Source: Branchiostoma lanceolatum (lineage: Eukaryota > Chordata > Leptocardii > Amphioxiformes > Branchiostomatidae). Taken from it: a stretch of 64,000 bases of DNA. The stretch covers positions 749,501 to 813,500 of the forward strand of contig NC_089727.1 in the NCBI RefSeq assembly GCF_035083965.1, in the 5' to 3' direction. Under the pieces are notes generated by a model. That model saw only the letters and a list, made by a program, of their open reading frames with translations. It ran no database searches and was not told the DNA's origin. The position numbers were made by a program, and so were the translations under genes. Positions 12,968 to 57,183 of the stretch are shown here, one piece after another; the stretch's first letter is position 1; every line of letters starts with the position of its first letter.

Positions 12968-12985
12968 GGGAAGGGTGTTGAACTC

Positions 12986-14419: not shown

Positions 14420-14430
14420 CCCAGCGCCCC

Positions 14431-15225: not shown

Positions 15226-15274
15226 TTTGAGTTTCTTTGTTCTTTGTCCGACGCGCGTTCCAGAATCTTCTGTT

Positions 15275-25300: not shown

Positions 25301-28300
25301 GAAATATGACAACTTCAAACCATCATAGTCAGAATCCACTTCACAGAAAGAGATGGAAAGGTATTCCCAGACCCTGTCAGACCTTTCCTACATGACAAGA
25401 CTGATGACTGGCCATGTTTGGGCCTGTAGTTTATTCAGACCGACTGAGATGACAGATGCGTGATGACTGCATGGCAACAGAGCCCTGTGGGAATGTGCTT
25501 TTGGGATGACTAGAATACCTGTCAATCAAGCTGCCTTCCTGTCAATCAAATGGTCTTCCTGGAACTTTGAAGGACCTTGTTTACCACACATACTCTGAAT
25601 TTGTTATATTTTTTTCTAAAATGTTATCCAGTTGCTTGAGTAACTGTTACCTTGTGTAGCTATCTAATAATCTATAAATGTAATGTATAAATGTTATGAT
25701 TATTTTTTTAGGAAAACAGAACTTTGCCTGCACTTTGAACAGTCCAGAGGGAATCATGAATGTGCTTCTGGCAGTTTTCAAACAGTGCTGAGTAACAGTT
25801 TGGATACAACACAGGCCTGCCATTTGGTAGACACTCTTAGTTTTAGGGAGTGAGCAGAGTAAGAGTTTTCCCTGACCTTTTGGGGTTGGGGCACTTGCAT
25901 GTTCTTATGCAGCTTGGAAGTGTTTAAGTGTTACTATGTTGAGGTGTTTCCCTTACCTGTACATTTGGGCTTGGGGTTGCTACATGGTGTTGTTATCTAA
26001 GTGTTGTATTGTTATCATTGTTCCTCACCTGTACATTTGGGGTTGGGGCACTTGCATGTTATTATGTGGCTTGGAAGTGTTTTAGTGTTACTATGTTGAA
26101 GTGCGTTTCGCTTACCTGTACATATGGGCTTGGGGTTGCTACATGGTGTTGTTATCTAAGTGTTGTAGTGTTATCATTGTTCCTCACCTGTACATTTGGG
26201 GTTGGGGCACTTTCGTGTTGTTATGTAAGAATTGTAGTGTTGTTGTTCCTCACCTGTACATTTGGGGTTGGGGCACTTGCGAGCGAGACTCAGGTAGCGG
26301 TACAGGTTGGGCGGGACGTCCCCCTCGCCGTACGGGATTCCCGAGTTCTTCACCCCCCTCCCCGCCAGCTCCAGCAAGGTCGGCGGGTCGTAGCTCAGGT
26401 CCCGCACGAAGTTCACGACCAGCGGGTTGCCCCGGAGACTGAGCTCGGTGAGGTTGCGCAGGGCGATGATCTCGCTGGGCAGCGCGGCGATGCGGTTGTT
26501 ATGGAGACTGAGGGAGCGGAGGTTGCGGAGACGGGCGAGGTGGGGGGGGATGGACTCCAGCCGGTTGTCGCACAGCACCAGGGACATCAGGGAGGACAGA
26601 CTCCCCACCTCCAGGGGCAGGGACGAAATCTGGTTTCCTCCAAGGTACAGGATCTCTAGTCTGTAAGGGTGAAGGAACACGTCTTAGCAGGACGCACGTT
26701 GCAGACGTTTGCAGCAAATCAAAACCGAAATCGTAAACCGTGAAAATTTCTGCAGTATCTGGTTTAAAGTTAATCTTCAGGTTCTTAAGTCTGAGGGAAG
26801 GAAGGGGTCTCATCAGCAGAGACAGATGGATGCATCTTACAGTCTTTATAATGTTTAAGGTGGTACCATGGGACAAAGGCGATTTCTATCTTGTAAGCAC
26901 ATTAGGTCTATGACATGTTTTCATGTTGATCTCAAGTGCAGCATTATAGTTTTAAATCTCTCTCTCTCTCTCTATCCAATTTAACATCTTTTGTTCCCCA
27001 TCATATGGGGGTTGGACGTGCTTGCACATGGATGGGGGAGCCCCAGAACTCCTCATCAAGTGCAAGTCTTTTTTCAACAAATTAAGATGATGTGGCCTCA
27101 GACCAGGATTATGTCTGTATATGTAACAGCAGACAGCCGGCGATACTGAAAAGGGTTTAGACTTAAGTCCTTTCCATTCCTACACTCACTGTAAATGCAC
27201 CCAGACGTAAACTATCACTGAATGAGTGATGGTCTTACTACTATTATCAGACCTACATGCTGGCACACAATTATAGTATCTGGGTCAGCAGCTCATTTTA
27301 ATAAGCTCACACACAGTTAGACTCAGCCTGGTGGAAGTAGCCTCTACCAGGCTCCGCGGATCGCTGGGAAAAATAGAAGAAATTGGCCAAATAGAGTGAA
27401 TAGTATGCCAAGGGTAGTCCGCTATACAGGCAAGCTCAACGTGGTTCGCCTATTGAGCTTCCCTGTATAGCGGAGTACCCTTGGCATACTATTCACTCTA
27501 TTTGGCCGATTTCTTCTATTTTCCCAGCGATCTGCGGAGCCTGGTAAATTTGACAACAGAGTCTGAAGGGAAAGTCTTGTCTGTGTATTTCTAACCTAAT
27601 TTTGAGAAACCATCTGCCCCTTAAGAACTGAACAGATGATTATCTTCAGTTTAACTTTAAGCCCCTTTCACAATGGGATCAATTGAACTGTCCCACAATT
27701 GTCGTTACCTCATTTACATATCAATTCACAGTTTTGGCTGTATCTACCTGTTGGATTTCAGATTATTTCCTGACGAAAGACAGGTTGGGTCCCACACGTC
27801 TGTTTTCAAAACTTATCCCGTTGCTAGAGTAACTTCGGTACTGTGTAAAAAATTATCATCACTGTTTTTCCCCATGGAGACAGGCTGTCATAACAAAGAT
27901 TAAACAGGGTCTGGGAGTCTGAATTCAGAATTATTGATTACAATTAGTGCCACATTATTGTTAAAAACCTGGACCTTGGATTTGTCCTGGCATCCATCTG
28001 TCAAACTGTTCTGACATTTTCGACAGAATTCTGACAAAATTACCATCAGCCGAAACTCATTAAACATTTACTGATGTCCGCCAAACTTCAGTTCTAGCCT
28101 GACTCCTTTGTAGCCCTGTCACCCTCCACACAAAGGATAATCTCGAAGACCGTATTACACTGGCAGAAGAAGTATGTATTGCAACCTTGGATTGCCATAC
28201 AAGCTCCTTCTTCCAGTTGGATACGGTCTTTGCAATCCATTGGGCCTGCTTGGAGGCTACACAAAGGACACAAGATCGAGGGGTTGCGAGTTCAGTTCGT

Positions 28301-30592
28301 GGCTAGACGTTGTGTCCATGGGAAAGGCACTTTCCTCACTCCACCTAGGTGTAAAAATGGGTACATGTCTACGGTTGGGGAGGTGAAAGGTGGTGGAAGG
28401 AGAGGGATGGGCTCCGCCTTCCAATACCGTGCGCCAGGCACAGTAGATAACACACCCACTGCCCCTGCGGCCTCATAAAGGATATGGGGCCTTCACCTTT
28501 TTTACGATGCTACAAAAACATCACATGAGGGAGGACCTTCAACTCTGCCTGTGCTCTCATAAAGCATGTCCTGACATATCACCTGTCACACCTGAACAAA
28601 GGCTCACCTGGTGAGGACAGGTGAGGCCAACAAACATGGAGGGTTAACCTTCTCCCTGCTGCCCAACCCGAGAACCAATACAAATTTGGCTCCAAATGAC
28701 TACCTTACAAGTCTCACCGCTACAAGTACAAACCAGACTTTGTGTGTTTCATCTTATTTTCTTTCCACCATTTTCTTTCTGTTGTACAAAATGACAAGAT
28801 TTATATACATTTTAGAATCCTAAAACAAACCTTTATCTAAAATTTATCTTCAGGAGGGACTCCTGATACATTATAAAGATATGATTTAACAGTGAACATT
28901 TGACATTTTACAAGGTTCAATCTTTTGGAAACTAAATGTTCAAATCTTTTGTATATTCTACATTTCTACAGGTATCGAATCAGGGTGACTTTATGTAATT
29001 GTTTTTGCTTCCATGTTTTTCTCAGACCTTTCTTGACAGGCACACATAACTGATATATGAGACGGCCGTGCTGTCGAGTCCGTTCCTTCACATGTGTGGA
29101 TGGCCTCTAGAACATGTAGACTAATTATAACAGGTCACAGCGTAACATTACACACTGTTTCACTCATGGTATGTTTACACACATGATGTATTCAAAACTT
29201 GTCTACAAGACTACATGTTTATGTTTAGACTTTCTCTTAGACTTTTCTTCATATCAATACAGAACATCAATCAACTATAGATTATACGGTAACAATATTA
29301 CACTTACAGACATTTCAAAGTAAAATTTACAAACCAGCCAACATCAAAACAGAAGGCTGGAAGTGCATTCACTCCCTGGAACTGTGCACCAAGGTACAGC
29401 CTTCAGACTGTTTTAAGTTAATATTTAAATTTGGTGCAGCCGTATGTATGATCTAATATAACAATATCGCTTAGTCATGATTGCAGGAGTGTTCAGGGTG
29501 GCATTGACGTTACACCGTAGTTAATATTTTACTACCGTACAAACTCGCTACAATGATATTTTCCCCAGAGGCGCAGACAGAGGCGAATACAAATACTTTA
29601 CGATTTCTTTTCATTTAAAAAAAAAAATGTGACTGAAAGTAATCAAACACAAGTACAACCTTAGGGTATCAGGAAAATCAAACTTGCACAACCTAAATAT
29701 AATCATAAATCGTATACATTTTTAATATAATCGTCAGGGCTGGAAATTTTGTGAGTTTGCTGGAAGCTGTTTGAGATCTTTGAGATTACAGATTGATATA
29801 AACAAGTTTCAAATTATTTGGCAAGTGAAAAGAATGCTCAAGGTGCTTATGAATCACATTTTGCAGAAAACAGGACTGTAGTATTTTGAGCCCTGATACA
29901 AAAACACAAAACAACAGTACATCCATTTGCAGGCAAATGTTTAAGTTTTTTGAGATCACAGTTTGATACAAACAAGTTGCAATTCGCAATTCGGCAATCA
30001 AGAAGAATAGCTAGGCAGGCTTCGTTCCTACGATCATAACATATTGCAGAGAACAGGCCTAGGAATATAGCACCTTATTTCAAGCCCTGATACACACATG
30101 TATAGATAACAACAAATGTAGATAGCGAAAAAAACCTTCTCACCTGCTCATGTGTTTGATCTCGCTGGGAACCGTCCGCAGCCTGTTGGCGCCGAAGTAC
30201 AGCGCCCTGAGACCCGCCATTCCCTCGATCTGCTCCGGGAACTCCATGAAACCGTTCCCGCTCAGGTTCAGCACCTGCAGGCTGAGACACCGCCCCAGTT
30301 CCTTCGGCAGGGCGCCGTCCTCGAGCAGGTTGTTCTTGGCAATGAATGTCCTGAGGTTGGGCAGGTGCGTGAGCTCGCCGGAGACGTGCGTCAGGCCGTT
30401 GGCCGAGATGTCCAGGTGCCGGAGCTCCTGGAACAGGGAGACGGCGCGCGGGAGCACCAGGATGCGGTTGTTGTTCAGGTGAAGGCTCTGGATTCTGTCC
30501 GCTTTCTCAGAAAGGTGCTCCGGGAAGAGGTCCAGGCCGGAGTACGCCAGGTCCACCCGGTTCTCCGGTGGGACGTCGTCTTCGTACATCAT
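22327..30592 (-). CDS. LRRC58: LRRC58, leucine-rich repeat protein (3 exons, 348 aa)
   Basis: Exons 30592-30144, 26660-26254 and 22517-22327 join with consistent phases (AG|A and G|GA) to 349 codons including TAG. The N-terminal 270 residues are LRRs (LQSLHLNNNRILVLP, LRHLDISANGLTHV, LQVLNLSGNGFMEFP, LEILYLGGNQISSLP, LRSLSLHNNRIAALP). The conserved RGNPLVV, FVRDLSYDPPTLLELAGR, CPNPKC, FDARVKQIKFVDFCGKYRLP, YLCSP and terminal VLLG are diagnostic of LRRC58. The paired CxxxxC, C and CSPRC cysteines look like a small zinc-binding module. Recent work, as I recall it, links the human protein to cullin-RING turnover of cysteine dioxygenase; I have not verified this. Intron borders are duplicated nearby. 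Confidence 0.95.
22589..22757 (-). repeat. Two extra copies of the LRRC58 exon 3 acceptor and its first codons
   Basis: Copies with 5' ends at 22629 and 22754 (minus strand) retain CAG and GVYFDARVKQIKF or GVYFDAHVKQIKFV. They then run into SFCNI/FCNIYA and a stop. If spliced to exon 2 they would give shortened C termini lacking the YRLP...CSPRC cysteine module. Confidence 0.75.
23930..25150. repeat. Diverged tandem repeat in LRRC58 intron 2, unit about 340 bp
   Basis: Blocks CAGGTGACYCYCWGGTGACCCA at 24566 and 24909 start units about 342 bases apart, each followed by ACATACCACCAG, GTTCA, an AGAGTTGGAT block, AACTTCCCAG and AGATGAAACAAC. An older unit precedes them (23950-24540). Confidence 0.7.
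25871..26253 (-). repeat. Five extra copies of the LRRC58 exon 2 3' end and its splice donor
   Basis: The true exon ends AAGTGCCCCAACCCCAAATG + TACAG|GTGAGG at 26254. Copies of this block lie at about 25871-25902, 25953-25980, 26034-26056, 26114-26140 and 26186-26213. Two of them keep the GTGAGG donor exactly. The copies at 25953 and 26114 have GTAAG-type donors with CCCCAAGCCC, and the outermost is decayed. Confidence 0.8.
27346..27545. mobile_element. 200-bp near-perfect palindrome (hairpin MITE)
   Basis: Left arm from ACCAGGCTCCGCGGATCGCT to AAGCTCAA; right arm is its reverse complement, ending AGCGATCTGCGGAGCCTGGT. The loop is about 13 bases. TAGCCTC just outside the left end recalls the TAGCC-ended MITEs at 31277 and 58279. 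Related debris (CCACCAGGC, AGTAGCCTCC) occurs at 51300-51440 and 32660-32820. Confidence 0.85.
28225..28500 (+). mobile_element. tRNA-derived SINE-like repeat
   Basis: A box-B-like GGTTGCGAGTTCAGTTCGTG is followed by an unstructured body (GGGAAAGGCACTTTCCTCAC, GGGATGGGCTCCGCC, ACACCCACTGCCCCT), the arrangement of a pol III SINE. The open frame across it has no protein motif and I treat it as chance. Confidence 0.6.
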
Positions 30593-31276
30593 CTTGCCTT
30601 CTTAAAGTTAAATCCCTCCTTGCGCTTCTTAAACTACCAGAAGGAACCTGATCTACTAGTGCTGACGACCTCCTTGAGAAAGCCACAAGCAAACACCGCA
30701 GACTTCACAGCAGCCATTTCAGTACAGACTCCTGCCAGCATACCAAGGATAGATCCTGCAGATACCCTGCATGTAGGTCTGACATGCTGTGGTTACAGTT
30801 ACAGGAAAGCCGGGAGCCTGTTGCACACAGCCCAGCCGGTAAAACTGAGTCTCACCAAAAACCTGCCCACCAAAATCTACATGTCCTTCTGTTCTGGGTT
30901 ACAACAACATCTCTCACACTCAACGAACAACTTGTCTACAGGACTGGGGAGCAAACTACAGTTACATCCCACCACTGGACAGTTTTGCAGAGTCACTGAA
31001 CGTCCTGTTCTGCAGAGTCACTGTTCACTGACCCAGTTAGAGAGACAGTCACTCACTGTACCTTTTCTTTACACAGAGCAGGAAGGCCTGCTGACCTTTG
31101 CACCCTCTTGTGTTATTCAACCGCTGGGTCATTGCATAAGCCAAACTGGGGAGGTAAATATAGCTTCATGAATATGTAAGATTTACCTTATAAGGGAAAC
31201 ATATCCTCATGAATATGTATGAGCCTCATGAATATGTAATGACCTACCTTATGAAAATGTGAAATGAGATTTGCAT

Positions 31277-33873: not shown

Positions 33874-34100
33874 ATCTAGGCTGAGGTGGGCAGGAACAGA
33901 CTGACAGTCTGGTGGTAACAAACTTACTCTCCAAGCAGAGGTTAGTGGAGAAGATTGTGACCTTTTTATCCTCTGCCCCGTTTAACGGGGCAGAGGAAAA
34001 AAGGATAAAAAGGTCACAATTTTCTCCACTAACCTCTGCTTGGAGAGTAAGTTTGTTACCACCAGACTGTCAGTCTGTTCCTGCCCACCTCAGCCTAGAT
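33874..34100. mobile_element. 227-bp near-perfect palindrome
   Basis: Arms run ATCTAGGCTGAGGTGGGCAG ... CTGCCCACCTCAGCCTAGAT, with a tip CCCCGTTTAACGGGG. Only small indels separate the arms (about 112 bases each). An inner block ACTCTCCAAGCAGAGGTT also forms the termini of the repeats at 58925 and 59974, so this is a hairpin member of that family. Confidence 0.9.
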
Positions 34101-35185: not shown

Positions 35186-35206
35186 ATATAGAAGGAGAGC
35201 GGACGA
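35186..35206 (+). repeat. Left 21-bp inverted repeat of the transposon
   Basis: ATATAGAAGGAGAGCGGACG plus A. It lies 286 bases before the transposase ATG and reads inward. The TATATAG-like start could double as a TATA element. Confidence 0.8.
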
Positions 35207-35308
35207 GCTAGCGCCCCGCTGGGTCCTTTTGTTTCGCCCCGCTGCGACCCATTGTGTATAGCTGGCGCGGCGCCATCTTTGAACCCGATGCGTGAATCGC
35301 GGTTCTCT

Positions 35309-35451
35309 ATGCAAATGAGCTTCGGCATGACGTCACACGTGCCGAGCTTGAGCCGACCGGCAGCCGAGATGCCTCGGGTTTCCGACGATTTCCTTATTTG
35401 GGACACCCGGTAGGGTTCGGCTGACGTCATCATTCGATTGAGGACAAAATG
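35309..35451 (+). promoter_or_regulatory. Putative transposase promoter with octamer, CRE and E-box motifs
   Basis: Octamer ATGCAAAT at 35309-35316, CRE TGACGTCA at 35328-35335 directly followed by CACGTG at 35336-35341, and a second TGACGTCA at 35422-35429. At 35449 an AAAATGGCGG context (YY1- or TISU-like) offers an upstream ATG out of frame with the transposase; it would read 26 codons across the first splice and stop. An octamer ATGCAAAT also occurs at 42581-42588 before the accessory gene. Motif matches only. Confidence 0.45.
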
Positions 35452-35491
35452 GCGGTCATCCAGACATTTGAGTTTTCGTCGTGCGAGCAAC

Positions 35492-38400
35492 ATGGGTGAG
35501 TTTATGGTCTTTTTCGTCCACAAGTCTCCGTTTTTTAGCGTTCGAATTATAGATCAATAGCTATAATTTCATGTAGCCACAAAAAATTTGTATCGTTATT
35601 TTAGAAAGGTTTGTTTTTTTTCCTGAATAGCTGAAGGGTTCCTCGTTCCAAATTTGTAATTTTTGGCGCCGGTACCTGGGTAGATTTTCCGGTACCTGGG
35701 AGTGACTTTTTGTATAATTTTCGGGCCCGTCCGTGCATGGAGGTCCTTAGTTCGTGTCCATGGGTTCTTCGGTCATGATTTGGATAGCTATGTGTGTTTC
35801 CTTAAGAGACTTTTAGGTCTATTTATGTCGGCTCCCGATTGACATGTTTACCGGCATATTAAAGAAAGTATTTGCGAGCCAAGCCAAGCTAAGTTTGTAA
35901 GCCAAGCTCAGTCGGCATTATATTGCAATACCACGAGCAAAGTACAAAATACTATAACTTCTGCTAAAACGATCAGTTTTGTGGGAGGTTTGTGATGTAC
36001 AAATATGATTTTGCAGATCTTATATTATACCTTGTTTGTTCAATGTAATTCAAAGGGAGGTTTGAACCACTTTGTACAGGGAAACTTAAAAGGATGTCTT
36101 ATTTTTCTAAATTGCTGATATTTGAGAATATTGCTATCATTGTGCTTTGCCCTAGTCCTAAGAAGCCCCCCTTCAGGAATTGATATTTTGGTAGCAAAGG
36201 AGGGAAAATTGGACAAAGAAGTTGCACAAAGATACATTAAATTTTGCCTGCTATATACTTGTTTTGTTTCTATTTTATTTGTGTCCGGCCCTGGGTCCAT
36301 ATCAAAAACAAGGACAAAATATCAGTATGTATGTATCTAAATACATACATTTAGATATAACTTTGTGGGTATATGCATACATTACAAATCTTTTGACATG
36401 AGCTTCTTAATCTTATCCTTATTCAGATCACAAAGGAAACCTTGCAAGGGTTTGTAGAGTATGCGGCACGCGCTTCAAACCTCCAAAAGATCGGAAACCC
36501 AAACCTGTAACTGCATTTCGAGAAACCATTTTGTATCTGTTCGATGGTTTTGACATCATACATGACAAGGAGGACACTCATCCCCCCTTTGTGTGCGAGA
36601 AATGCCGGCTCACCTTAATCAAGGCACAAGCAAAGCTTAAAGATGGAAAAGGTGCAACAACAATGTTGGGTGACAAGATGGCAGACTTCCATCCACACAC
36701 GGAGGACACTTGTACCATATGCAACTACAGACCAACTGGCAGACCAATAAAGAAAACTCCCCCTGGGTTGCGAGCGCCCTCCACAGCGGTACCACCTGAA
36801 AACGGCTCAACTTTTGACACACTCACTGATGGAGAGATTATTGACGAAGCAACGAGACACGGATTTGCCCATCTGGGGAGTGCTGGGAATGGTGATCTGG
36901 TTTTCGCCAAATATCAGGTCAAGAGCGTTCATGTCAAAATCCAACAGCAGGTCAACGTCAAACAGGACAGGACATGGGAGGTGTTTGTCCATGACAAACC
37001 ACTTCCTCCATCCCACCCCATATATTCTTCCCGAAGTCTTCCATCCGTGCTCACCAAAGATACAAAGTCAAAGTTGTTTTTGGAACTAAAGGAAAGTTCC
37101 ATTTGTGTTGGGAATCTTGGATATGACGAACTGTTGAAGAAAAAGAGAGAGGGAGTTGAAAATGTGGTCTTCAAGGGAGTAGATGGAAATGTCGTTGCAA
37201 GGGAAGAAACGGGTCCTCATACTGATGACCGAACGATCAGACACGTTGATTGTCATCTTCTCCTTCCGTCCAACAAGTTTTCGCCCAGATGCCCCACATG
37301 CACAGCACACGGCAACACGTTAAGAGGAGCACTACACAGGACAAGACACAAGAAGGACCTTGATGTTTCCCATTCATCAAGGGTCTCAAACAAACATCTA
37401 ACAAAGGAACAGTTGATTGATAAGTCAAAGGATCTGCAGCGCGAAAAACGATTACAGAAGACCCTTGCCTCTAAAGCAAAGGACAGAGTCTGTGATGCTG
37501 TGGAAAAAGAAGGTTGCAATGTCAATGAAAATCAACATGTCTTCTTGCAGTCAGTTCTTAAGGCAGCAAAGCCAAAGCCAGGAATGCAGTTCGAAGATGG
37601 CTCCGCACAACAATTCTTGTTCCAGCAGCAAGTAAAGCAATCCCAACAACAAGATGCAAGAACTATGAGATGGCACCCCATGATGATCAGGTGGTGCCTG
37701 GCCATATTCTACACATCCAATGCAGCATATGATATCATGCGAAACTCTGGATTTCTTCAACTCCCCCACCGCACAACACTTCAACAATATGGAAAATTCA
37801 CAGAACCCACCCCAGGTTTCAATCCTGATATACTCACAAAGCTCGGAGAAGTTTCAAACCTCATCAACCTGCCAGACTGGAAAAAAAACGTGACCCTTGT
37901 TTGGGACGAGATGAAGATCAAGTCAGGCCTTGTGTTCTGCAAATTGTCAGGAGACCTTATTGGTTTCACTGATCTGGGCGAAATCAACAACGAGATGAAG
38001 GATTTCGAAAGAAGGTGCCGCGAACAACAGCATGGAACAGATGAACAACCGGACCTAGCAACACATGTCCTTGCCCTAATGGTCAGAGGAATCTTTACAA
38101 ATTTAGAATTCGTATTCGGCTACTACCCATGTCTGGGGTTTTCGAGCGACCAACTTTACCCAGCAATCTGGGATGGTACAGCCATCCTAGAGGACATGGG
38201 CTTCCACGTGCGGGCCTTTGTGTCGGACGGCGCTTCGCCAAACCGGAGGTTTGTCTCATGTTTCTGTAGAATAGATTCTGTTACATAAGGTCAGAGACAC
38301 ATTTTAAGTATTGCTGTATATTGTAGATGGAAATAAAGTGCATGCCAATCTCTAACATTTGCAGGCTCATTGATGGGTGAAGTCACAACAGTACAATTTG

Positions 38401-40218
38401 CATCATGTTTTGTTTCAGACACAGGACTACAGTAGATACCATGTGATGTGAATGAAAGATGCGATTAAGGGGCTTTGATTGTTTGACTACAGGTTTTACA
38501 AGATCCATGGTGATGATGACGCACAGCTGGTATACTGGACTACAAACAACCACCGACCTGGACACAAGATCTACTTCATCAGCGACGTGCCACATCTCGT
38601 AAAAACAACCCGCAACAACCTGGAGAACTCGGGAGCGAACAGGAGGACAAGAAATCTGCATGTGAGTTTTTTTACGTTTGTGTCCTTCTGTTCAAATGCT
38701 TTTGTTTTGAAGGTTACTTAGCATTGGTTATCTTCATTAATATTTTTTTTTCCAACAGTACGACAGTCAGGAAATCACCTGGAGGCACATCGTCAGCGTT
38801 TATGAGTGGGATCTTGATCCACAGCGCGTGGCATTAGGAATGAGAAAGCTGATCAAGCTGAAAACAGACCACGTTCACCTGACCCCATCCCTCCGTATGC
38901 GGGTCAACCTTGCTGCACAGGTTCATATTTGCTTTTGTGTTGTCTTCCAGTTTTGTGTACAGTTTCTTTTGGTGAGGTTAATGTCAATGGTAACATAGTT
39001 CCCAGCATGATTTCTTTATTGTATGTTGGCAATTTTTCTGCTTGCATTTAAAGATTATGTTAATATACCAATGTCTTAATATACAAATTTACTGATAATG
39101 TCTTAAGTAAGCCATGCACAGTAACATATACATGTAAACAGTGTGGGAAAAATTGTTTTGGATGACACTTAGCTGTAAACATGTCATGCATTTGTATTGA
39201 ATGGTAAATATCAATCACATTATTTGTACAGGTCCTCAGCAATACAATGAGTTGTACCCTTGCCAGCCAAGGGCGCCATGATACCGAAGGAACCAGGAAG
39301 CTCATCGGCATGATGGACAGGTTCTTTGACTGTCTTAATGTCAAAAGTGCTAGGCAGGGAGACCGTACCAGAAAGGACGACCTAAAGCCGTATCGGGATG
39401 TCGAAGATGCCAGGTTCACAGTAAGTGTCACAATTCTTACTTTAAGTTCTTTATCTAGACTGGGAAGTAACATTCAAATGTTACATATATCGATAAGGTA
39501 TAATATGCCTACTAGTTTTTTTTAAATTCTTGTGGGTCAAATATATAGCAGTATACACAAACACAAAAAAACAGCATGGAGTTTAAAAAGTTATGGCTTT
39601 ATTACAATCAAACAACTCTACTTTCTTTCAGTGGCTGGAGAAAGAGTTCCTGGGCTACCTCCATCGATGGGAGCAGCAGGCTCAGCAGACCCCCGGTGTG
39701 ACCAAGGATGTGAAGAACAGGATGTGTTTGTCCAAGCAAACACTTGTAGGGCTCAGGATGACAGGTACATTTGTTGCAATACCATAGTCACAGTAAATCA
39801 AGGATAAACGTTCTACTGGCGTAATGAAATGATCGAAGATGCTACCTGTTAGCTCCTTGCTAAGTGTAATGTTACCTTTATATTATGGCCCTCAATGTAA
39901 TGTCTACATCTACATTTTTTTTCAGTTTTATCTTTTATAGAGCTGACAAAGACCCTGCTACAGGAGGAAGGTGTCACCTACGTCCTCAGCGACAAGTTCA
40001 ACCAAGACCCCCTAGAGCAGCATTTTTCCAAGCAGAGGAGACGCTGTGGAGCTAACGAGAATCCCACAGTAATGGAATATGGTAGGAACGAGGTCAACCT
40101 TCATGTGATGGGGGAGATGCTTAGAGCTGTCAGGGGAGGGAATGTTGGAGGGAGGGCACAAGTGCCAATAGACTACAATGATGATACTCCTCTCGCAAAA
40201 AGGCCACGAAACAGATAG
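35492..40218 (+). CDS. P-element-like transposase with RAG1-N-like zinc region (7 exons, 918 aa)
   Basis: Exons 35492-35495 (ATGG only), 36427-38248, 38493-38661, 38759-38920, 39232-39420, 39632-39764 and 39941-40218. All junctions are GT-AG and in phase, totalling 919 codons. Residues 8-105 have CRVCGTRF (C11, C14), HPPFVCEKC (C58, C61) and FHPHTEDTCTICN (C97, C100), the order and wording of the RAG1 N-terminal zinc region. A C2H2 finger follows (C290, C293, H305, H309). The core matches P/THAP9-type transposases: WHPMMIRWCLAIFYTSNAAY, VWDEMKI (D495), VSDGASPNRRF (D602), YFISDVPHLVKTTRNN (D640), FFDCLN and FNQDPLEQHFS (E852). It presumably cuts and joins the element ends. There is no THAP domain. 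Start choice rests on the tiny first exon restoring M-D-H-K in frame; an upstream exon is possible. Confidence 0.88.
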
Positions 40219-40666
40219 TTTTTTTTTTTAAGTCTGTGTATTATGCAACCACTTGTATGTACAGATTCTGCAAGTTATTTACAAAATGTCATCTAGTACA
40301 TGTACATAACCTATGTATTGCCAAGCATGGCAGCAATATTTGTAATAATGATTACATTATCATTATGACAGGTGTACAAAATATGTAACAAGTTTTTATG
40401 GATCTACAGTACTAGTATGGACTGCAAGAAGTAGGCACAACTAGCGTTGTACAAAATCTGAAGGTGCAAGTACAGCTGAATGACTTCATGTATTATATAT
40501 ATATATACAGATAGAGACAATGTGTACAAGCCTATATATAACTGAAATACTGTGACATATAGCATCACAATGTTTTGTAGCAAGTATAAACACAATTGTA
40601 TATAAGGCTGCATAATATGACTGCAAAGAGCAAAGGCCATACAGTCACCTGCACACAAAAGTGGAG
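40219..40666. other. Gap between the convergent transposon genes
   Basis: 448 bases of AT-rich sequence with a TATA dinucleotide run near 40492-40506. It should hold both 3' ends, but I see no clear AATAAA. No coding signal. Confidence 0.5.
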
Positions 40667-42530
40667 TCATGAATCTTGTGAGTTCAATGACTTCCTTAGA
40701 GACTTTTCACCCTTTTTGGATGCTGCTGCATTGTGTACCAGCATGTAAGCATCAGCAAATGCTTTGCACCTTAGGTTGACATAGTACGAAAGGACCTTCT
40801 CCATCAAAGCTACACTAGCTTTCTCATCTGTTATGTCACAAGCAATGACGCACCAATACTTGTTCACCAGGAAGTCTGTCTCAAGTTTGCTTATTGTCTC
40901 ATGTTTTATTCCTGTTGCTATACCCTGGTTAAGCTGCTGAATGTTTGCCGTTGACCGTACAATCTTTTCCATGGCACGGAAGAAAAGGTACACTTTGTCA
41001 GTTACATTAAAAAGACCCCCACGATCAACAGCATTTACCCATCCTTCTGTGTACTTCAGAAAAGATGTATCAGAGTGTTTGGTACCTGAGACCTTCCATT
41101 GCTCCAAAACTGAAACATAGAGTTCGGCAATCTTATTGTTGCACTTCTTATAGCGCTTCAGTAGTGCATGCGGGATATACCCTGCAACATACCTCAGCAC
41201 TTGCTCTTCAGCCTCACTCATATTTCTAATGTCATCACTATTACAGTTACCACTTGAAGGTGGGGCATCCACATTGTGCTTCATTTTCAACAGGCCCTCA
41301 AAAACTTTCTTTGTAATGAATATATATAATGATGGGCATGGATCCTTCTTAAGCTTAGACATGAGATTGTTCCACAAACTGTGGAAGACCTCACCTGAGC
41401 ATAGCTTGTGATATGCAGCCCACATTACTTCATTACCAGCAGTAAAGAGAACTGAAGTATCTCCAGCAGTTATCACAGAAAAAAGTAGAGTAAACAATGT
41501 TAAGATGAAGTTCTTAGAGTCAACATTTGGCCAAATATCTAGAATTTCTGTCGCTGTTCTTCTTGCTCTGTTTCCTGGAGTCTCCATACTTCCAAATGTG
41601 ACCTTCCAGGCGGGATTGTTGGTGGCTTCTTGTAAGGCATCTGTCAGGAGCTGGGGTCCTTCCTGCAGGGCATCCTTTTCCTCAAACTTCGAAGTTGGCC
41701 TCTTGACTAAAGAAAAATACAAACAAAAACATGCAAGATATATTAATTGTAGAAAATTGCAATCACGAAGGCTGTAAGGAAGATAGCCGTCTTGCTCTCC
41801 AACAAATATTGTACAGGAAACTATTTGGTATATATTTATAAAGTCTCCATATTCACCTTTGAGTTTGCGACGTGACTGGGTAGCTTTGCGGGGTCCTTTC
41901 GCTGACGTGTTGTTAGAAGCGCCCTGTTCGTCGCTTGTGTTGGAAGTCCCTGGTTGTGGGGCTTCAGCTGTGACTGTGGAAGAAACAAGAGGCACAAATT
42001 GACTGACAGGTAGGGTGTATAAAAAGCCTTCTTGGTATAAACTAGATAAATATTTCTACAGATTGGATAGGTAGCTTTTTCAAAGCTATTCTCGATACAA
42101 GCGGCTTGTATGGATGGTCAATTGATTTTGGCACGCCGGGCGCTTCTACGCCCCCCTCCCCAAGCCGCGACAAAATATCAGATCGGAGCGCAAAATATAT
42201 CAGCAACAACATCAAAACAATCGAACTTATTCAACGGTACATTTTCATATAACGTTAGGAATAATCATGAGTCGTTAACTTACTGGTTTCTGGGTGTTCC
42301 TTCGACTTGTGTTTGTCAAACCATCGGGCGATTTTGTACTTTTTCCCGCATACTTCGCAAACGTATAATTTACTCGCTGCAGCGTTGGTCACCGCATCGC
42401 TTTGATCATCGCCGTCGGAGAGATCATCTTCCACGATATATTCTTCTGACTGTAATGAATCTAAGTCCTCCTCAAAGTCACTGAAATCGAAATCGCTCCA
42501 CACGTAATCATCATCGCCGGGTCGCGCCAT
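40667..42530 (-). CDS. Accessory protein of the transposon: acidic N terminus, C2H2 finger, YxAGY domain (3 exons, 467 aa)
   Basis: Exons 42530-42284, 41973-41857 and 41706-40667 join in phase to 468 codons. Residues 1-50 are strongly acidic (DDDY, DFEEDLDS, DDLSDGDDQSD). A C2H2 finger follows (C58, C61, H74, H79: YVCEVCGKKY...KHKSKEHPE), then a basic S/T/K linker. The C-terminal 345 residues include EEQVLRYVAGYIPHALLKRY and a helical end with LSYYVNLRCKAF. YxAGY and a late lR-x-F/S motif recur in C-terminal regions of several DDE transposase families (my recollection), so this may be a split-off transposase subunit or DNA-binding partner. No catalytic triad is evident. Confidence 0.82.
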
Positions 42531-42661
42531 GTCTGGACGTAAAAACAATGCAAGATCGCCAGAGCGCGCGCGTGGGCTGTATGCAAATCAGGGTAATTCG
42601 CACCTTGACGCGACATTGACTTTTCACACCCGTTAGGAGCATAGTACAATGGAGACTTGGG

Positions 42662-42682
42662 TCGTCCGCTCTCCTTCTATAT
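42662..42682 (-). repeat. Right 21-bp inverted repeat of the transposon
   Basis: Exact reverse complement of 35186-35206. It lies about 132 bases before the accessory-gene ATG. Outside it the minus strand reads CAAGGAGGTTTT. Confidence 0.8.
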
Positions 42683-45349: not shown

Positions 45350-46396
45350 TTAGCTGACTGAACTGACTGCCACATTCCTCACACTTGTACTTTTGTAGGG
45401 TTTCTCACCAGTGTGAGTGTGCATGTGTTTCTTCAGACAATCCAGCCGACTAAATTGCCTACTACACTCCTCACACCTGTATGGTTTCTCACCAGTGTGA
45501 GTCTGCATGTGTTTCTTCAGAGTACCCAGCTGACTGAACTGCCTGCTGCACTCCTCACACTTATAGGGTTTCTCTCCAGTGTGAGTCCGCATGTGTGCCG
45601 TCAGTACATGCAGGTGACTAAACTGCCTACTGCACTCCTCACACCTGTGGGGTTTCTCACCAGTGTGAGTTTGCATGTGTGTCTTCAGAGTACCCAGCTG
45701 ACTGAACTGCTTGCTGCATTTCTCACATTTGTAGGGTTTCTCACCTGTGTGAGTGTGCATGTGAGTCTTTAGACTATCCAGTCGACTGAACTGCCTGCTG
45801 CACTCCTCACACCTGTAGGGTTTCTCACCAGTGTGAGTCCGCATGTGTGCCGTCAGTACATGCAGGTGACTAAACTGCCTGCTGCACTTCTCACACCTGT
45901 AGGGTTTCTCACCAGTGTGAGTTTTCATGTGTCCTTTCAGAAGACTCAGCAGACTGAACTGACAGCCACATTCCTCACATCTGTAGGGTTTTTCACCTGT
46001 GTGGGTCTTCATGTGTTTTTTCAGATTACCCAGCTCACTAAACTGCCTGTTGCAGTCCTCACACCTGTAGGGTTTCTCCCCTGTGTGAGTTTTCATGTGT
46101 GCCTGAAGGTGTTGCAGCAGTCTAAACTGCCTGCTGCACTCCTCACACCTGTAGGGTTTCTCACCAGTGTGAGTCCGCATGTGACTCTTCAGACTACCCA
46201 GCTGACTGAACTGCTTGCTGCATTTTTCACACTTGTAGGGTTTCTCCCCAGTGTGAGTCCGCATGTGTTTCTTCAGACTATCCAGCGTAGTGAACTCTTT
46301 GCTGCACTCCTCACACCTGTAGGATTTCGTTGTTGCTCTCCTGTTGGAAAATCCACCTCCAGATCCTCTCTTGAAGTCACTGCTGTTTGTTGCCAT
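45350..46396 (-). CDS. C2H2 zinc-finger protein, 11 tandem fingers (348 aa)
   Basis: After a 25-residue leader (MATNSSDFKRGSGGGFSNRR), eleven 28-residue fingers follow, joined by HTGEKPY linkers, each CEEC or CEKC with 12 spacing residues and HMxTH. Such proteins bind DNA in the nucleus. The final block is shifted: an extra TACAAAAG-like insertion near 45395 turns the twelfth finger into KSTSVRNVAVSSVS and a stop. The true finger sequence (CEECGSQFSQLSNLKKHMQTH) remains intact in another frame to 45318. The coding exon starts at ATG 46396, with an AG acceptor-like site just upstream (AACTTCAG), so a 5' UTR exon is likely. Several fingers are near copies (for example fingers 6 and 9), showing recent internal duplication. 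Confidence 0.92.
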   Translation of the reverse strand: MATNSSDFKRGSGGGFSNRRATTKSYRCEECSKEFTTLDSLKKHMRTHTGEKPYKCEKCSKQFSQLGSLKSHMRTHTGEKPYRCEECSRQFRLLQHLQAHMKTHTGEKPYRCEDCNRQFSELGNLKKHMKTHTGEKPYRCEECGCQFSLLSLLKGHMKTHTGEKPYRCEKCSRQFSHLHVLTAHMRTHTGEKPYRCEECSRQFSRLDSLKTHMHTHTGEKPYKCEKCSKQFSQLGTLKTHMQTHTGEKPHRCEECSRQFSHLHVLTAHMRTHTGEKPYKCEECSRQFSQLGTLKKHMQTHTGEKPYRCEECSRQFSRLDCLKKHMHTHTGEKPYKSTSVRNVAVSSVS

Positions 46397-46908
46397 GGTT
46401 TCTGAAGTTCTTGAGTAAAAAGATGAGACTTAATTTTCCAAATATTTTGAGTTTCCTGGACAAGAACATAGGACATCATACGGACCCGAAAGAAGACAAA
46501 AAACAGTCACAAAACCAGGATGAAAGAAAACTAGGATACTGTATTAAACTGGTATGACTGTTCTTTTTCCACAGTCTTGAGAATGAAAAATTTTAATTTT
46601 AAATTTTAAAAAAAATCTTATCTCAGGTTTTCCTGAACATAACGATTCTCTTATACAACAATATGGCTTCACTACTTTACCTTACCTTTTATACAACATT
46701 TTGACACACAAAATTAAGCACCTACCAAAAACCTCTGATCCTTCTCAAGTTGAACTGAACCGAAGCCTATAGCTATGTCATGTTACCTGAATGGTCAGAG
46801 ATATCGTATCAAAATTTTTTATAAAGAGTTTGTTGGTTGGTAGCACTACTGGCCACAGACTTTCTGCAAGATCCACTGCAGCTGCTGACAAAGTCACGTG
46901 TTCTATCT

Positions 46909-48506: not shown

Positions 48507-48598
48507 GTAGCCGTGGCGACTAACGAAGGGAGTTTTTGCTTGATATTACATATACGTAATATCAAGCAAAACCCCCCTTCGTTAGTCGCCACGGCTAC
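48507..48598. repeat. 92-bp palindrome
   Basis: GTAGCCGTGGCGACTAACGA ... TCGTTAGTCGCCACGGCTAC with a TATACGTA-like centre; arms pair almost completely. Probably a tiny MITE or hairpin repeat. Confidence 0.85.
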
Positions 48599-50198: not shown

Positions 50199-53159
50199 CT
50201 AGTAGTGTTTCAGTGCCCCTGTAAGATATGGTAGGTATATACGTGCCACAGGACACAGAGGGGTGTGTGCTAAAGCGGTATAGCTCTTATCAGGCAGGTT
50301 GACCTTCAAGTCTCTCCAGGCATCGGCAGACCTGTCAAACACATATACGAAATATTCAGATGGTGACTCTTCTATAGCAGTGTCATAGGCTTCCAACAAT
50401 ATGTGCAGCTGATTCTCCAGTACGAAAAAACTGGTAATATCATCCATACCAACAGCAAGGTTTCCTGGGTTCGGCAAGCCTTGCAGTTTCTGCCAGCTGT
50501 CTGACTCCGTGTCGTACACTGTTGTCTGACTGAAGTCACGATCTGTGCAGAAAATCTCTGTTCCCATGGCAACGGCCGTGCAAATGTATGTACTGATCAT
50601 CGGGGGGGTCCGCCTGCACCAACGGTCCTGACTCGGGTCGTAGCGATGCATTTCCGTGTTTGTGAAGAAATACAGGTTTGAACCGCAGGACAATGCCACA
50701 TTGAAGCTTGACAATGACCATACTGTTTCAGGAGTTGTGTCAAGTTGCAGCCGTGAACACTGCTGCCACTGGTCCGTGTGCCGGTCATACCTTCTCACCA
50801 CAACCAACACAATATCCAAAGAACATATATCAAGGTAGTATAAAATACCGTCAATTTGAATAAGGAGCTCCTGGACGCAATGCCAATCATCTCCTGGCTC
50901 TGACACAGGAACTGGAGACATACTGGCAGGTTCCCACACATTCTCCACATGGTTGTATCGAAACAGGGGCAACTCATCGGAACCAAATATCTCAGTAGCC
51001 AGCATGTAAATGCTGTTATTACTGGTCACTGCCATAGCTTGGGCTTCAGGTAGGTCTCCAGCATCATAACTGCAGCTGATGTACTTCCCTTCCCGAGGGT
51101 TCATGAAGAGGAGCTCCTTGGAACTGGATAAAACACAACACAGACTGTCAACAAAACTGGACTGGGAGCTCTGAACTTTTCTTTTATCACAAAATGCACT
51201 ATTGCATATACATTTGTAATATAAAAATGTATAATTTTGTGTCCTCGGCTTACAAATAAGTGGAAATTAGGTGCGTTTACATAACTGACACTGTGAAAGT
51301 AGCCTCCACCAGGCCCTCTTACGGGCGTATGAATCATGGAATTCGGCAGAAAAAGGAATAATTAGCCAGTAGAGTCAGTCCACAGTGAAGATCACATTTC
51401 GCCCGTTTAGCCTGCAAGTGAAACCCTGTCATTGTTAGTCTGGTAGAGACTACTGTGAAAGTGCGTACTGCAAGTGGACCACAAAATGTGGAATAACATT
51501 GTGCAAGGACTGTTCCTGGCATGGAGAGTCAAAAGAAGAAGTAAGTTTAACATACCCTACAATGTACAGAAGAACCATTTCCGTGGTCATCCCAAGCCTC
51601 GGTTTCAGGTCAGAGTTCCCTTTCTGTACCACATTCCTGATGACCTCAGAACTCCTAGGATCCTCCCTGACCATGGGGTGTTCCAAGATGGCTGCCGTGT
51701 CGTCTGAGGTCAGCAGGTTGAAGCGGATGTGAGGGAGGATGCTGGGTAGGTGGTGTAGTCTGTAGGGCACAGGGTAGGTGCAAAGTTTTGGGATCATTCA
51801 TTTACATCACTGCAGAAAATTCTTGGATATGGAAACAAATGGCTGAAAGTAATGCACATATCATGATATGGATGCCATCAATAGTACAATGTAAACATAA
51901 AATGAACAACTGATTAAATGAATGGAATACACTGACACCCACCTGTCTTCCCTGCTATGCTGCACCCATCTCACCACAGCCTCCCACACTGTTGTCTCCT
52001 CTTTAACATCCAGCTCATCTTGGCCGATGATCTCAGTCAGCTGATTCACACTCAGGCTGCAGAACTCCTCGCTGGAGGCAACCTGTGAAGGTGCGAAATA
52101 GTTTGAAACGTATTATGTATAGAGATTCAAATAAATGTGCTATGATCTGGTAGCTAATACTAAAAGCTTTAAATTGAAAGTTTAATCCTCTTAACAAACA
52201 GCTTTTCTCCCATGGAAACATCATGTGTGGATTCTTCATTTTATTATTATTGGGGCACATAAAATTAGGTCTCTAGAGACTGTCATCCTTAGAAATTTTA
52301 GAGTCTGAAATCACAAAGAAAATGAAGACCAACCTCAGCAAAGTGCTTAAAGATCCACTGAAGACAATGTTTCCTAGCAATTTCCACAGAAAAGGTGTCA
52401 GCAAACTTGTACAGGTCCACACAGGTGGAGTGCTCCACGTTCATGGCCATGTAGCTGCTGCAGGTGTCTCTCACATAGTCCAGTTGGAGGAGGTCAGCTG
52501 CCTGGTACAGGGGCTGCACTTTGTCTAGGGACACATGGAGGGTTCCCGAGTAGATGTAACTCAGAAGCTCCCCAAACATGCCTGCATCCAAACCCTGCAG
52601 AATACAACAAAATGTTAAAACGGCACCCAACATTGTATAACAGCAAAATACAAAATCAAGTGTCTGTTCAAACTTAAGATATGTCATTTGGTCCTTTAAA
52701 AGATATATTTTACATTATGTTTAATTTAGCCTTACTTAGTCGTTAGTAGGGCATGACGCATGGCGAGAAGTCAAGAAAACTTAATTTTGAATAACATTTG
52801 TTGACCTTGCGCTTCCTCTAATGGTTCTAAATGATAAGTGGTCACTCAGTTTAATTTCTTTTGCCATCTAATTTAATCCCTAAATGTTCCACCGCCAACC
52901 CTACCTGTAAAACAACCGTCTTCTGCCGACTTTCCGCCATGTCATTTGTAAACATGGCCCTGAAGTAGGGGCTGGCCGCGGACAGAACAAGCCGATGGCA
53001 GGGAAACCGCCGGTCCTCGACTTCAAGGACGACATCCTGCAGTACCCCAGCCTCCTGTAAGTCACCCACAGCTCCAAGAAACCCGTGCAGATAGCTCTCG
53101 TCTTGGTAGGAACAAGGTCGAACTGGGGGGTCGTGCGGTTCTTGGTCCGCGGCAGCCAT
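50199..53159 (-). CDS. BTB-BACK-Kelch protein, paralogue A (5 exons, 594 aa)
   Basis: Probable CUL3 adaptor (family knowledge). Exons 53159-52905, 52594-52334, 52082-51943, 51759-51556 and 51123-50199 sum to 595 codons in phase. BTB covers about residues 28-145 (LQDVVLEVEDRRFPCHRLVL, ASPYFRAMFT, LLSYIYSGTLHVSLDKVQPL, AADLLQLDYV). BACK follows (SVNQLTEIIGQDELDVKEET, VVRWVQHSRE). A divergent Kelch propeller runs from about residue 290 (RYDRHTDQWQQCSRL, MHRYDPSQDRWCRRTPPM, IFCTDRDF, VYDTESDSWQKLQGL, VYVFDRSADAWRDL). The overall layout resembles KBTBD-type proteins, but I do not name an orthologue. Poly(A) signal at 50068-50073. It is about 80% similar by eye to paralogue B. Confidence 0.92.
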
Positions 53160-53215
53160 GTTGATGATGATCACGGAGCTGTACCTCCCAGTTGGGTTCT
53201 TCTGACAGGCAGTAC

Positions 53216-53233
53216 AGAAGCGCCCTCTAGCGA
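53216..53233 (-). promoter_or_regulatory. CTCF-like motif upstream of BTB-Kelch paralogue A
   Basis: The minus strand reads CGCTAGAGGGCGCTTCT, 57 bases upstream of the ATG. It matches the CCxCYAGRKGGCGC core of animal CTCF sites. The same motif sits upstream of paralogue B and of the relic at 43256. Confidence 0.5.
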
Positions 53234-53636
53234 CTAACAAGGTGATATATACATGTATACTGTACACATGTATCTGAACTTGAGCTGTTCCCCGACTCCA
53301 TAGACGTGTTTGAATGGATATTTGTCCAAAAATCCAGTAAACTATCACAACAAGTATAATAACAAGGTTGGAATTGGGTGCATCTGTTTTGTTGTCATGG
53401 GCTTTAGTGGAACAAGGGGACAGAAAAATAAAGTTCAAGTTCAAAGACCTGGCAACAAGTCCCTAAATTAGATTAAATAAATTAGAGAACATTATTGATA
53501 GAAGTCTGCTTGCTCCAAAATATCTGACATACATATTATTATTTTTATTCAACTTGTGGCTTCCGATAGATTTGATTTTGAAATAGAAGGTAAACACATT
53601 GCCCATACTTCTTGCACATCAATAGATGAGGTAATC

Positions 53637-53642
53637 TTTATT
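53637..53642 (-). terminator. Poly(A) signal AATAAA of BTB-Kelch paralogue B
   Basis: AATAAA about 640 bases past the stop, within sequence paralogous to the 3' end of paralogue A (AACACAT..C, TACTTCTTGCACATCA, AATCTTTATT). The extra 500 bases in between were gained after duplication or lost from A. Confidence 0.5.
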
Positions 53643-54277
53643 TGAATCATCACATAGAATCTCTGGACTGCTGTCTGTGTACAATAGAATTTCCTGAGAA
53701 ACCTACTTAATCATACAAACTAGTACTAATGTTAGTTAACTTTTACTAATGTTAGGTAAGCAGTAGTATCGTTAGTTATTATCAATTAACTAGCACTAAT
53801 ATACTCTGGGTACATCATTGTATTTGATAGACCAAGACATATGATGCTTTAACACATACAAGTAAAAATGTTGGTGAAATTTCAATATCATATCAAAAGG
53901 CTGGTGTAGACCTAATATTTTCTGTAACACCTACTACCAGTCAAAACCTGACGGTTGTGAAACTGAAGAAAAATACAAACAACTGACAACTTGTCTACTA
54001 AAAGAAAACTCAGTTCAAGATTGAAGTTGAAGAAATATGAAATAAAGTACTAGTATTTCCAGTCATACAGTAGCGGTCCAATCCAATCCAAATTAACATT
54101 GACTGTTTCCAAAGTTGCTCACTCTAATATCTGGTCTTTGTCTAAAATGAAAAAAAAAAGCCACCACGTCCATGCATATCGTCTAAGCCTTGCGAGATTG
54201 GGAGCAATAAACGATTAACTTGATAGTGAATGAATGAGTGAGTGGTTGAATGACCTAGTGAGCTATTTGTCTATACT

Positions 54278-57135
54278 CTATTTCCTATCATATTCCATGA
54301 TGTGTTTTTGTTTCCCCTTTAGATGTGGTAGGTATATGTGTGCCACAGGAACCATGGGACCACTTGCTATATAACACTCATTCGGAAAGGGTTCATTCAA
54401 GTCTCTCCAGGCACCAGCAGACCTGTCATACACATATAGCAGGTTGTCGCAAAGTGGCTCTTCTGTGTCAGTGTCATACTCAGTTACTTCTACATGTATA
54501 TACAGCTGGCTCCCCAGTACAAAAAGCCTGGGATTACTACCAACACCAACAGCAAGGTTTCCTGGGTTCGGCCAGCCTCGCAGTTCCTGCCAGCTGTCTG
54601 ACTCTGTGTCGTACACTATCGTCTGGGTGAAGTGGTCATCTGTGCAGAAAATCTCTGTTCCCATGGCAACGGCAGTGCAGACTCTAGTAGTGATCATTGG
54701 TGGGGTCCGCTCGCACCAGAGGTCTTGCCTTGGGTCGTATCGATGCACTTCCGTGCCTGACAGGAAAAAGAGGTGTGGACCGCAGGACGGTGTCACGATG
54801 TTATATAAAGTTTCGCCAAGCTTTAGCCGCGAACACCTCTGCCACTGGTCCGTGTGGCGGTCGTACTTTCTCATCCGCAGTAAGGAACTGTCGTCTGCTG
54901 TTCTCCTTTCCAAGGCCAGGTAGAATAAAACCTGATCAACTTCAACTAGTTGCTCGTCAGGACACATCCCATCTCTTCTAAGCGCCCTCAACCTAGATAC
55001 CGAGGACATACCAGCATGTTCCCACAGGTTCTCTGCATGGTTGTATTGAAACAGGGACAGCTGACTGTGATCCCCTGACTCACGAGTCAGGATGTAAATG
55101 TTGTTATCACTGGTGACGGTCGTGGATATGGCATCGGGCAGGTCATGAGGATCATAACTGCAGCTGATGTACTTCCCTTCCCGAGGGTTCATGAAGAGGA
55201 GCCGACCTCTCCTGCACAAAACACATCACAAACTGTCAATAAAACTGGACTGCAAGTTACAGCATGCATTGATGTCATCTTTGAGATCTAATCTTGTCTC
55301 CTCTGAGAAATGTGATATTAAATGGGTATAATTACGGTCATCTACACGAGGGATACTGTGGAAATGTGCAGAACCACAAAATGTGGAATGACATTGTGCG
55401 AGGCTTGTTTCTGTCAAAGAAAGTCAAATGACAAAGAAGGATACACCGACTCTAAATTGTACAGCAGAGCCATTTCAGTAGTCGTCATCCCAAGCCTGGG
55501 CTTCAGGTTGGAGTTCCCTTTCTGTACCACATTCCTGATGACCTCAGAACTCCCAGGATCCTCCCTGACCAGGGGGTGTTCCAAGATGGCTGCCGTGTCA
55601 TCTGAGGTCAGCAGGTTGAAGCGGATGCGAGGGAGGATGCTGGGTAGGTGGTGTAGTCTGTAGGGCACAGGGTAGAGTCTGGATCACACCAACTCATTAA
55701 ATAGAATCAACCACAATATGACAACAACAACACAAAGCCTTAGTAATGTCAGCTGAACAAATAGAACACTGACACCCACCTGTCCTCCCTACTGTGCTGC
55801 ACCCATCTCACCACAGCCTCCCACACTGTTGTCTCTTCTTTAACATCCAGCTCATCGTGGCTGATGATCTCAGTCAGCTGATTCACACTCAGGCTGCAGA
55901 ACTCCTCGCTGGTGGCAACCTGTGGAGGTGCGGAGTACAGGTACATGTGTGGTACTGTGGAAATAGTTGTTACAAGCCCATTCTTGCTTTCGTTCTTATG
56001 GTTGTAGCAAGGTGCAATATACACTTGTACTTAACTAAGTCCTGGGAGCATTTTGTGGAGATAAAAAAACAATGTTGTTAAACTTAAATATCTGCAGCAG
56101 ACAAGAACCTATAGTGGTTACACCCCTATGTTTTGAAATACCTATGTTCTGAAAGCCCTGTTTTGTTTGTTCCGAAAACCCTATATAACCCATTGTAGCT
56201 TCACATACACAAACCTTGGCAAAATGTCTATGGATACACTGTACACAACGTTTCCGGACTGCAGGCAGAGGGAAGACATCAGCAAACTTGTACAGGTCCA
56301 CACAGGTGAAGCGCTGCACATTCAAGTACATGTAGCTGCTGCAGGTGTCTCTCACATAGTCCAGTTGGAGGAGGTCGGCTGCCTGGTACAGGGGCTGCAC
56401 TTTGTCCAGGGACAGGTGGAGGGTTCCCGAGTAGATGTAACTCAGGATCTCCCCAAACATGCCTGCATTCAAACCCTGAAGTGAAGGACAATGTAACTAA
56501 CATTACAATGTTCAAACTTTAGCCTTTTAATATGATACCATCATCATGTATTATCTAGCGTCAGTGTACATTCAAGGTCGTACCTCGCTGGCTTTCACGT
56601 TAAAGGTTTTACATACATAAGATTTAGGGCGCACTATTTCTTTCCCGCTACGTCACAATGGGGGTCGCGGATAGATACTACTACTAGTACTAAGTACTAC
56701 TATGCTGCTACCAAGAAAATAGAGCACTTAGTAGGGGCATGGGGAGGGGGGCAAAACGATGAAGCTTTTACACAATTTGCTTCTTTGGGGAAACAGTGCA
56801 CTTATCCCTTTGCATTAGTTCTATATATATGGGGCCTCTTAGTAAGTTCCCTGTTTTTTGTTTAACTCTAAACTTACCTGTAAAACAACCGTCTTCTGCC
56901 GACTTTCCGCCATGTCAAATTTTGTAAACATGGCCCTGAAGTAGGGGCTGGCCGCGGACAGAACAAGCCGATGGCAGGGAAACCGCCGGTCCTCGACTTC
57001 AAGGACGACATCCTGCAGTACCCCAGCCTCCTGTAAGTCACCCACAGTTCCAAGAAAACCGAACTCATAGCTGTCATCTTGGTAGAAACTAGGACGAACT
57101 GGGGGGTCGTGCGGCTCTTGGTCCGCGGCAGCCAT
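54278..57135 (-). CDS. BTB-BACK-Kelch protein, paralogue B (5 exons, 601 aa)
   Basis: Tandem duplicate of the gene at 50199-53159 with the same five-exon plan and phases: 57135-56878, 56475-56215, 55919-55780, 55657-55445 and 55211-54278, 602 codons in all. The BTB domain is nearly identical up to YFRAMFT. Differences concentrate in BACK (VFPLPAVRKRCVQCIHRHFAK) and the Kelch blades, and exon 4 has three extra codons at its 3' end (LESV, donor GTATCC, unusual). The C terminus carries a longer tail (LKGKQKHIMEYDRK). Tandem origin, intact frames and divergence in the substrate-facing part suggest two working adaptors with different targets (inference). Confidence 0.92.
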
Positions 57136-57165
57136 GTTGATGATGATCGAGGAGCTGTACAGTAG

Positions 57166-57183
57166 AGAAGCGCCCTCTGGCGA
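57166..57183 (-). promoter_or_regulatory. CTCF-like motif upstream of BTB-Kelch paralogue B
   Basis: The minus strand reads CGCCAGAGGGCGCTTCT, 31 bases upstream of the ATG, matching the CTCF core. The start codon context CAACATGGCTGC is close to the TISU/YY1 element (SAASATGGCGGC), which favours very short 5' UTRs. Confidence 0.5.

Follow-up and report, generated by a model that had tools for sequence, protein, structure and literature searches.

A segment of the amphioxus Branchiostoma lanceolatum genome is probably a DNA transposon with P/THAP9-family proteins and a split transposase, each part of it encoded by one of two convergent genes; we assign this reading a probability of about 0.75. 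The segment occupies positions 35186–42682 of the 64,000-nucleotide stretch of DNA that was analysed (the window). One perfect inverted repeat encloses two intact, convergent and spliced genes there, as an initial annotation had proposed. Gene 1 would encode the catalytic subunit, in which a RAG1-N/ZAD-like zinc domain replaces THAP and is followed by a weak HTH, a split RNase H domain and a GTP-binding insertion. Gene 2 would supply the C-terminal domain (CTD), along with a C2H2-like finger of its own and one further helical domain, and its protein would act in trans with that of gene 1; both proteins would be needed and the element would be mobile. Most likely the element works like a P transposase with the CTD provided from a second gene, in the layout of a RAG-like transposon.

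The left (35186–35206, + strand) and right (42662–42682, − strand) terminal repeats are 21 bp long and match each other exactly at the annotated positions, so that the element has the terminal inverted repeats of the P/THAP9 superfamily. The repeat sequence begins with ATATAG. In a survey of perfect inverted repeats of at least 16 bp over the whole 64-kb window, this pair was the longest among those whose arms are separated by over 1 kb, and coincidence was rejected on this ground; the four inverted repeats in the window that are longer were short-span hairpins. By our own arithmetic, the chance expectation of such perfect 21-mers in the window is about 5e-4. The 16-bp core of the repeat, allowing up to three mismatches, occurred in the window at the two terminal sites only, and at least two such loose matches were found in 3 of 100 shuffles.

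Several short motifs lie near the ends. On the + strand, at 35212–35255, a subterminal 21-nt sequence (CGCCCCGCTG...) is directly repeated; the two copies are 81% alike and lie 23 bp apart. A CAAGTCTCC-like subterminal motif is present in inverted orientation at both ends (35520–35532 and 42648–42660, 11 of 13 matches) and also at 41841–41850, and is a candidate transposase-binding site. The octamer ATGCAAAT occurs near each end (35309–35316 and 42581–42588; five on this strand in the whole window), and two TGACGTCA sites stand upstream of gene 1, at 35328 and 35422 (three in the window); octamers and sites alike are possible promoter elements. The B. floridae gene 2 model P0003 has an extra N-terminus, TLICIHPKR, that agrees at 7 of 9 residues with TLICIQPTR, the translated leader of gene 2 (42568–42594, − strand), a likeness that suggests conserved DNA near the element end.

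Ten exons make up the two genes, seven on the + strand for gene 1 and three on the − strand for gene 2. Coding exon 1 of gene 1 (35492–35495) consists of ATGG, and the relatives P0019, P0020 and P0021 also start with MDHK. Exon 2 (36427–38248) carries the RAG1-N/ZAD-like zinc domain, a linker, the weak HTH and the start of RNase H; the GTP-binding insertion domain (PF21788, aa 643–760) begins in exon 3 (38493–38661). Exons 4, 5 and 6 lie at 38759–38920, 39232–39420 and 39632–39764, and exon 7 (39926–40218) holds the C-terminal part of RNase H with E857 (PF21789, E = 2.3e-8) and, at its end, a basic PLAKRPRNR tail. In gene 2, exon 1 (42284–42530) encodes an acidic N-terminus and one C2H2-like finger (about 42294–42365), exon 2 (41857–41973) a linker, and exon 3 (40667–41706) the helical domain, the CTD-like module and the stop. 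The two convergent stop codons are separated by 448 bp (40219–40666).

As first modelled, the genes had 919 and 468 codons including stops, with GT–AG at all junctions, fitting phases and no internal stop codon. These features stood; the last acceptor of gene 1 had to be changed from TATAG at 39940 to TTTCAG at 39925, which gives a protein of 923 aa. The acceptor was moved because the restored residues VLSFI occur in P0019 and fit the family consensus TVxSF. Near-identical public proteins from B. lanceolatum support the models: P0019 is 99% identical to gene 1 and differs from it at only 4 of the first 850 residues (846 agree), while for gene 2 P0001 matches 461 of 467. P0019 diverges from gene 1 at the very end, as though in another frame; the published model therefore does not cover the last part of gene 1.

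On its sequence, gene 1 belongs to the P/THAP9 transposase family, as initially classified. PF21787, PF21788 and PF21789 all scored above their cut-offs in a Pfam scan, the protein aligns with 6p5a_A, and its RNase H domain is split by a GTP-binding insertion and carries DDE residues, as is characteristic of the superfamily. The TNP-like N-terminal part of RNase H (PF21787, E = 2.3e-18; aa 463–613) lies at 37809–38248 on the + strand and extends into exon 3, as far as about 38505. It contains D495 and D602, and these two residues and E857 are conserved among relatives. The HTH match is weak (PF12017, E = 0.051, below cut-off), and the protein stops short of the CTD of fly P transposase.

The Pfam scan found no THAP domain in gene 1 and, instead, a RAG1-N/ZAD-like domain that the earlier reading had missed. 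This RAG1 N-terminal-like domain (RAG1_imp_bd; aa 1–107, 36427–36743, + strand) has three CxxC motifs, and its zinc motifs (CxxC ... CxxC ... H..CxxC) can all be aligned with those of RAG1. The RAG1_imp_bd match reached E = 6.3e-6 in the whole protein and 2.6e-10 for the N-terminal piece alone, and a profile of the N-terminal family matched PDB RAG1 at E = 7.9e-14. Eleven of 12 family members matched RAG1_imp_bd, and 8 of the 12 also matched zf-AD. In the Patiria relative P0025, outside those 12, the third zinc motif is missing from the aligned first 94 residues.

Gene 2 is most likely the CTD of a P transposase made as a separate protein, to judge from its predicted fold. The second gene annotated inside the repeats is present, but it is no unrelated extra; it resembles the C-terminal domain of P transposase. 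The CTD-like module (aa 282–449) lies at 40724–41227 on the − strand, so that the C-terminal helical domain of the P/THAP9 superfamily is represented in the element, and the additional helical domain (aa 131–268; 41267–41680, − strand) had no convincing structural relative among the matches listed. When the PDB was searched with a CTD-only profile, the P CTD chain ranked first; it was not listed in PDB sequence searches with the whole gene 2 profiles A3 and A4, with the protein P0118 or with the window's CTD piece. Among the matches that Foldseek by itself listed for the two models, none reached E ≤ 0.001. When ten CTD pieces were scanned against Pfam one at a time, the matches were scattered and weak, with Tnp_P_element_C once at E = 0.086, and Tnp_P_element_C matches are equalled by unrelated ones in the same proteins. 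PF22824 is precomputed on several gene 2 relatives. The C2H2-like finger falls under Pfam cut-offs (E = 0.099 here, best E = 2.5e-4 in relatives). Gene 2 also shows homology with P-like gene models of sponges, in their C-terminal part, and one sponge gene model joins the gene 1-like and gene 2-like modules. A relationship to Kelch/RAG2 was rejected, since Pfam gave no Kelch match and the main structural model is helical.

In the gene 1 set, made up of homologues 0.55 to 1.75 times as long as gene 1, the RAG1-N-like domain was present in 20 of 97 proteins, the window's own included. A FastTree phylogeny, midpoint-rooted, was built from 76 of 96 extracted catalytic cores after 20 short ones had been dropped; P0114, the intended outgroup, is not among the 76. 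All 14 RAG1-N proteins in the tree form part of one clade (support 0.995) with members from Clytia, Hydra, amphioxus and echinoderms, some lacking a detected N-terminal domain. Outside it stand both the three sponge proteins in the tree and the THAP-bearing proteins of coral, sea anemone and Holothuria. In B. floridae, LOC118406544 is 67% identical to gene 1 over 918 aligned residues and LOC118406548 62% identical to gene 2 over 454. Both are reported with the same longest contig (17,116,508 bases), the sole such pair in both lists, and apparently lie on one contig. Sea urchins of the genera Diadema and Lytechinus have separate gene 2 relatives. In one of them, P0018 (Lytechinus variegatus LOC121413213), the C2H2-like finger is replaced by one of PHD-like type, which scores below cut-off (E = 0.0022) and is reminiscent of the PHD of RAG2. 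A second profile search for the gene 2 family returned 23 proteins, none labelled as cnidarian or mollusc and 12 of them without an organism label, so that gene 2 may not go together with gene 1 in every lineage. Pattern searches for relatives in viral_contigs and genome_contigs matched 3, 39, 16 and 37 stretches, none of which was confirmed.

The recent activity suggested by the initial annotation is unproven: no 8-bp target duplication was found at the terminal repeat ends, nor a 5-bp one. True ends elsewhere with an 8-bp duplication were rejected, since a scan around the element gave one 8-bp candidate, whereas six control places, examined for 8 bp, gave 3, 2, 4, 10, 10 and 3; candidates of 7, 9 and 5 bp were also seen around the element. 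If the repeat is taken to be 16 or 17 bp long, its palindromic ATATA may allow a 4-bp duplication, either TATA or ATAT. With no 8-bp duplication at the ends and no better 8-bp candidates in the surroundings than in the control places, we keep as an unlikely rival the reading that the two are host genes, domesticated as a pair from such a transposon and still flanked by its old terminal repeats. Such a pair would fit the intactness of both genes, the lack of a duplication, and the fact that no second repeat-bounded copy was seen among the sequences searched; the near-identical P0019 and P0001 could be alleles of the same locus. It fits poorly with two 21-bp ends that are still identical and with the divergence of relatives: B. 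lanceolatum and B. floridae have three gene 2 proteins each (47–54% identical within species). Single copies at one locus, which had been named as pointing to two host genes, are made less likely by these divergent gene 1 and gene 2 relatives in the two species. The longest contigs of P0019 and P0001, 31.7 and 20.0 Mb, give a weak hint of different sites. B. floridae has two gene 1 proteins, 56% identical, and B. lanceolatum has P0019 and a truncated P0023. The latter is a model of 1290 aa in which three RAG1-N-like domains follow one another; it probably represents several element copies run together, as in degenerate copies, which also argues against domestication.

An alternative is that gene 2 has a regulatory role and is not a structural subunit, its protein being a free CTD that inhibits the transposase or competes with it. 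Truncated P products repress, and a CTD that is made separately and has a finger could attach to the ends without taking part in catalysis. In the P element a truncated 66-kDa protein is made, according to PMC7776569. We consider a purely regulatory role quite improbable in view of gene 1 itself, which, like its relatives, ends without a CTD-sized tail: in the length-limited gene 1 set, 50 homologues are complete at least as far as query residue 880, and 47 of these have at most 60 residues past it, and the three with tails of more than 150 residues are two sponge fusions and Diadema P0048, whose tail is repetitive. PMC7776569 also describes many DNA contacts made by the CTD in the fly P transposase complex. 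With gene 1 lacking a CTD, something must therefore supply its role, unless that role is dispensable; plausibly, a protein in trans could take the place of the missing domain.

Accidental neighbourhood, with gene 2 from another element or a host gene and the repeat coincidental, is very improbable: gene 2-like proteins are listed on short unplaced contigs for which no gene 1 relative has a contig of equal length, yet perfect ends surround both genes, only 448 bp part their stop codons, the two modules share a sponge gene model, gene 2 has a predicted CTD fold, and the homologues in B. floridae are apparently co-located.

P transposase is the textbook single polypeptide, and the two-gene DNA transposons Harbinger and ISL2EU, which encode a second protein beside a DDE transposase, belong to catalytic families and have second proteins unrelated to those of the amphioxus element. 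The two-gene arrangement, claimed as new for the superfamily, still appears so, for no two-gene or split P element was described among the literature matches listed, a survey with Repbase outside its scope. The element shares with the Drosophila P element, vertebrate THAP9 and zebrafish Pdre2 a homologous split RNase H with GTP-binding insertion and DDE residues, an all-helical CTD-like module and terminal inverted repeats. According to PMC7776569, P/THAP9 has one transposase with an N-terminal THAP domain and a fused CTD, in contrast to the two convergent genes and RAG1-N/ZAD-like domain here; according to PMC10983969, P and Pdre2 make 8-bp target duplications and the Pdre2 repeat starts with CA, whereas the amphioxus element has no such duplication and a repeat starting with ATATAG. 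Because a THAP domain, a single transposase gene and an 8-bp duplication were looked for and not found, we do not class the element among canonical P elements and claim family membership for its two proteins.

The layout is that of RAGL/ProtoRAG, described in PMC7204232 as having, in amphioxus, two convergent genes inside terminal inverted repeats and a catalytic subunit with RAG1 N-terminal zinc motifs beside a second subunit. RAGL differs in its Transib/RAG1-type catalytic core (P-type here, where only the N-terminal domain matches RAG1), its Kelch partner (here a P CTD without Kelch match) and its 5-bp target duplications (none at the repeat ends here). N-RAG-TP of Aplysia (Panchin and Moroz 2008) is likewise mobile and codes for a protein resembling the RAG1 N-terminus; the passages seen of secondary accounts (PMC8355894, PMC2996935, PMC13337447) describe its RAG1-N part only.

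If the split-transposase reading is true, the natural break at the RNase H–CTD linker would be a tool for CTD function, with one protein added or omitted, and the element would be a second convergent two-subunit transposase in animals that also carry RAG-like transposons. The P-type clade, with its labelled cnidarian, echinoderm and amphioxus members, bears on the origin of the N-terminal part of RAG1, the enzyme by which antibody genes are cut. Tentatively, and with the odds against it, one may picture an animal-wide P-type transposon lineage with a RAG1 N-terminal domain, which in deuterostomes works as an obligate two-subunit convergent transposon like RAG1–RAG2. The RAG1 N-terminal region would then have been exchanged between P-type and Transib-type transposons, and the lineage would be a donor of the RAG1 N-terminus, or a sister source of it, as well as a second and independent case of a two-subunit convergent DDE transposase.

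Elsewhere in the window, a Ty3/gypsy-like retroelement (10412–15273, − strand) has in its pol frame, after the integrase, a zinc finger of the CW type (PF07496, E = 2.3e-13, aa 797–839 of 858), which we take to be perhaps a histone-reading tail comparable to chromodomains. MITE-like perfect inverted repeats with short loops lie at 33874–34100, 7633–7805, 27385–27507 and 48507–48598 (arms of 79, 44, 32 and 24 bp). Apparent host genes have BTB/BACK and Kelch exons at 1085–5006 and 50202–57183 on the − strand, the Kelch-like frames at 1–3.5 kb being judged by eye. LRR exons are found at 26177–30601 and a C2H2 finger array at 45353–46429.
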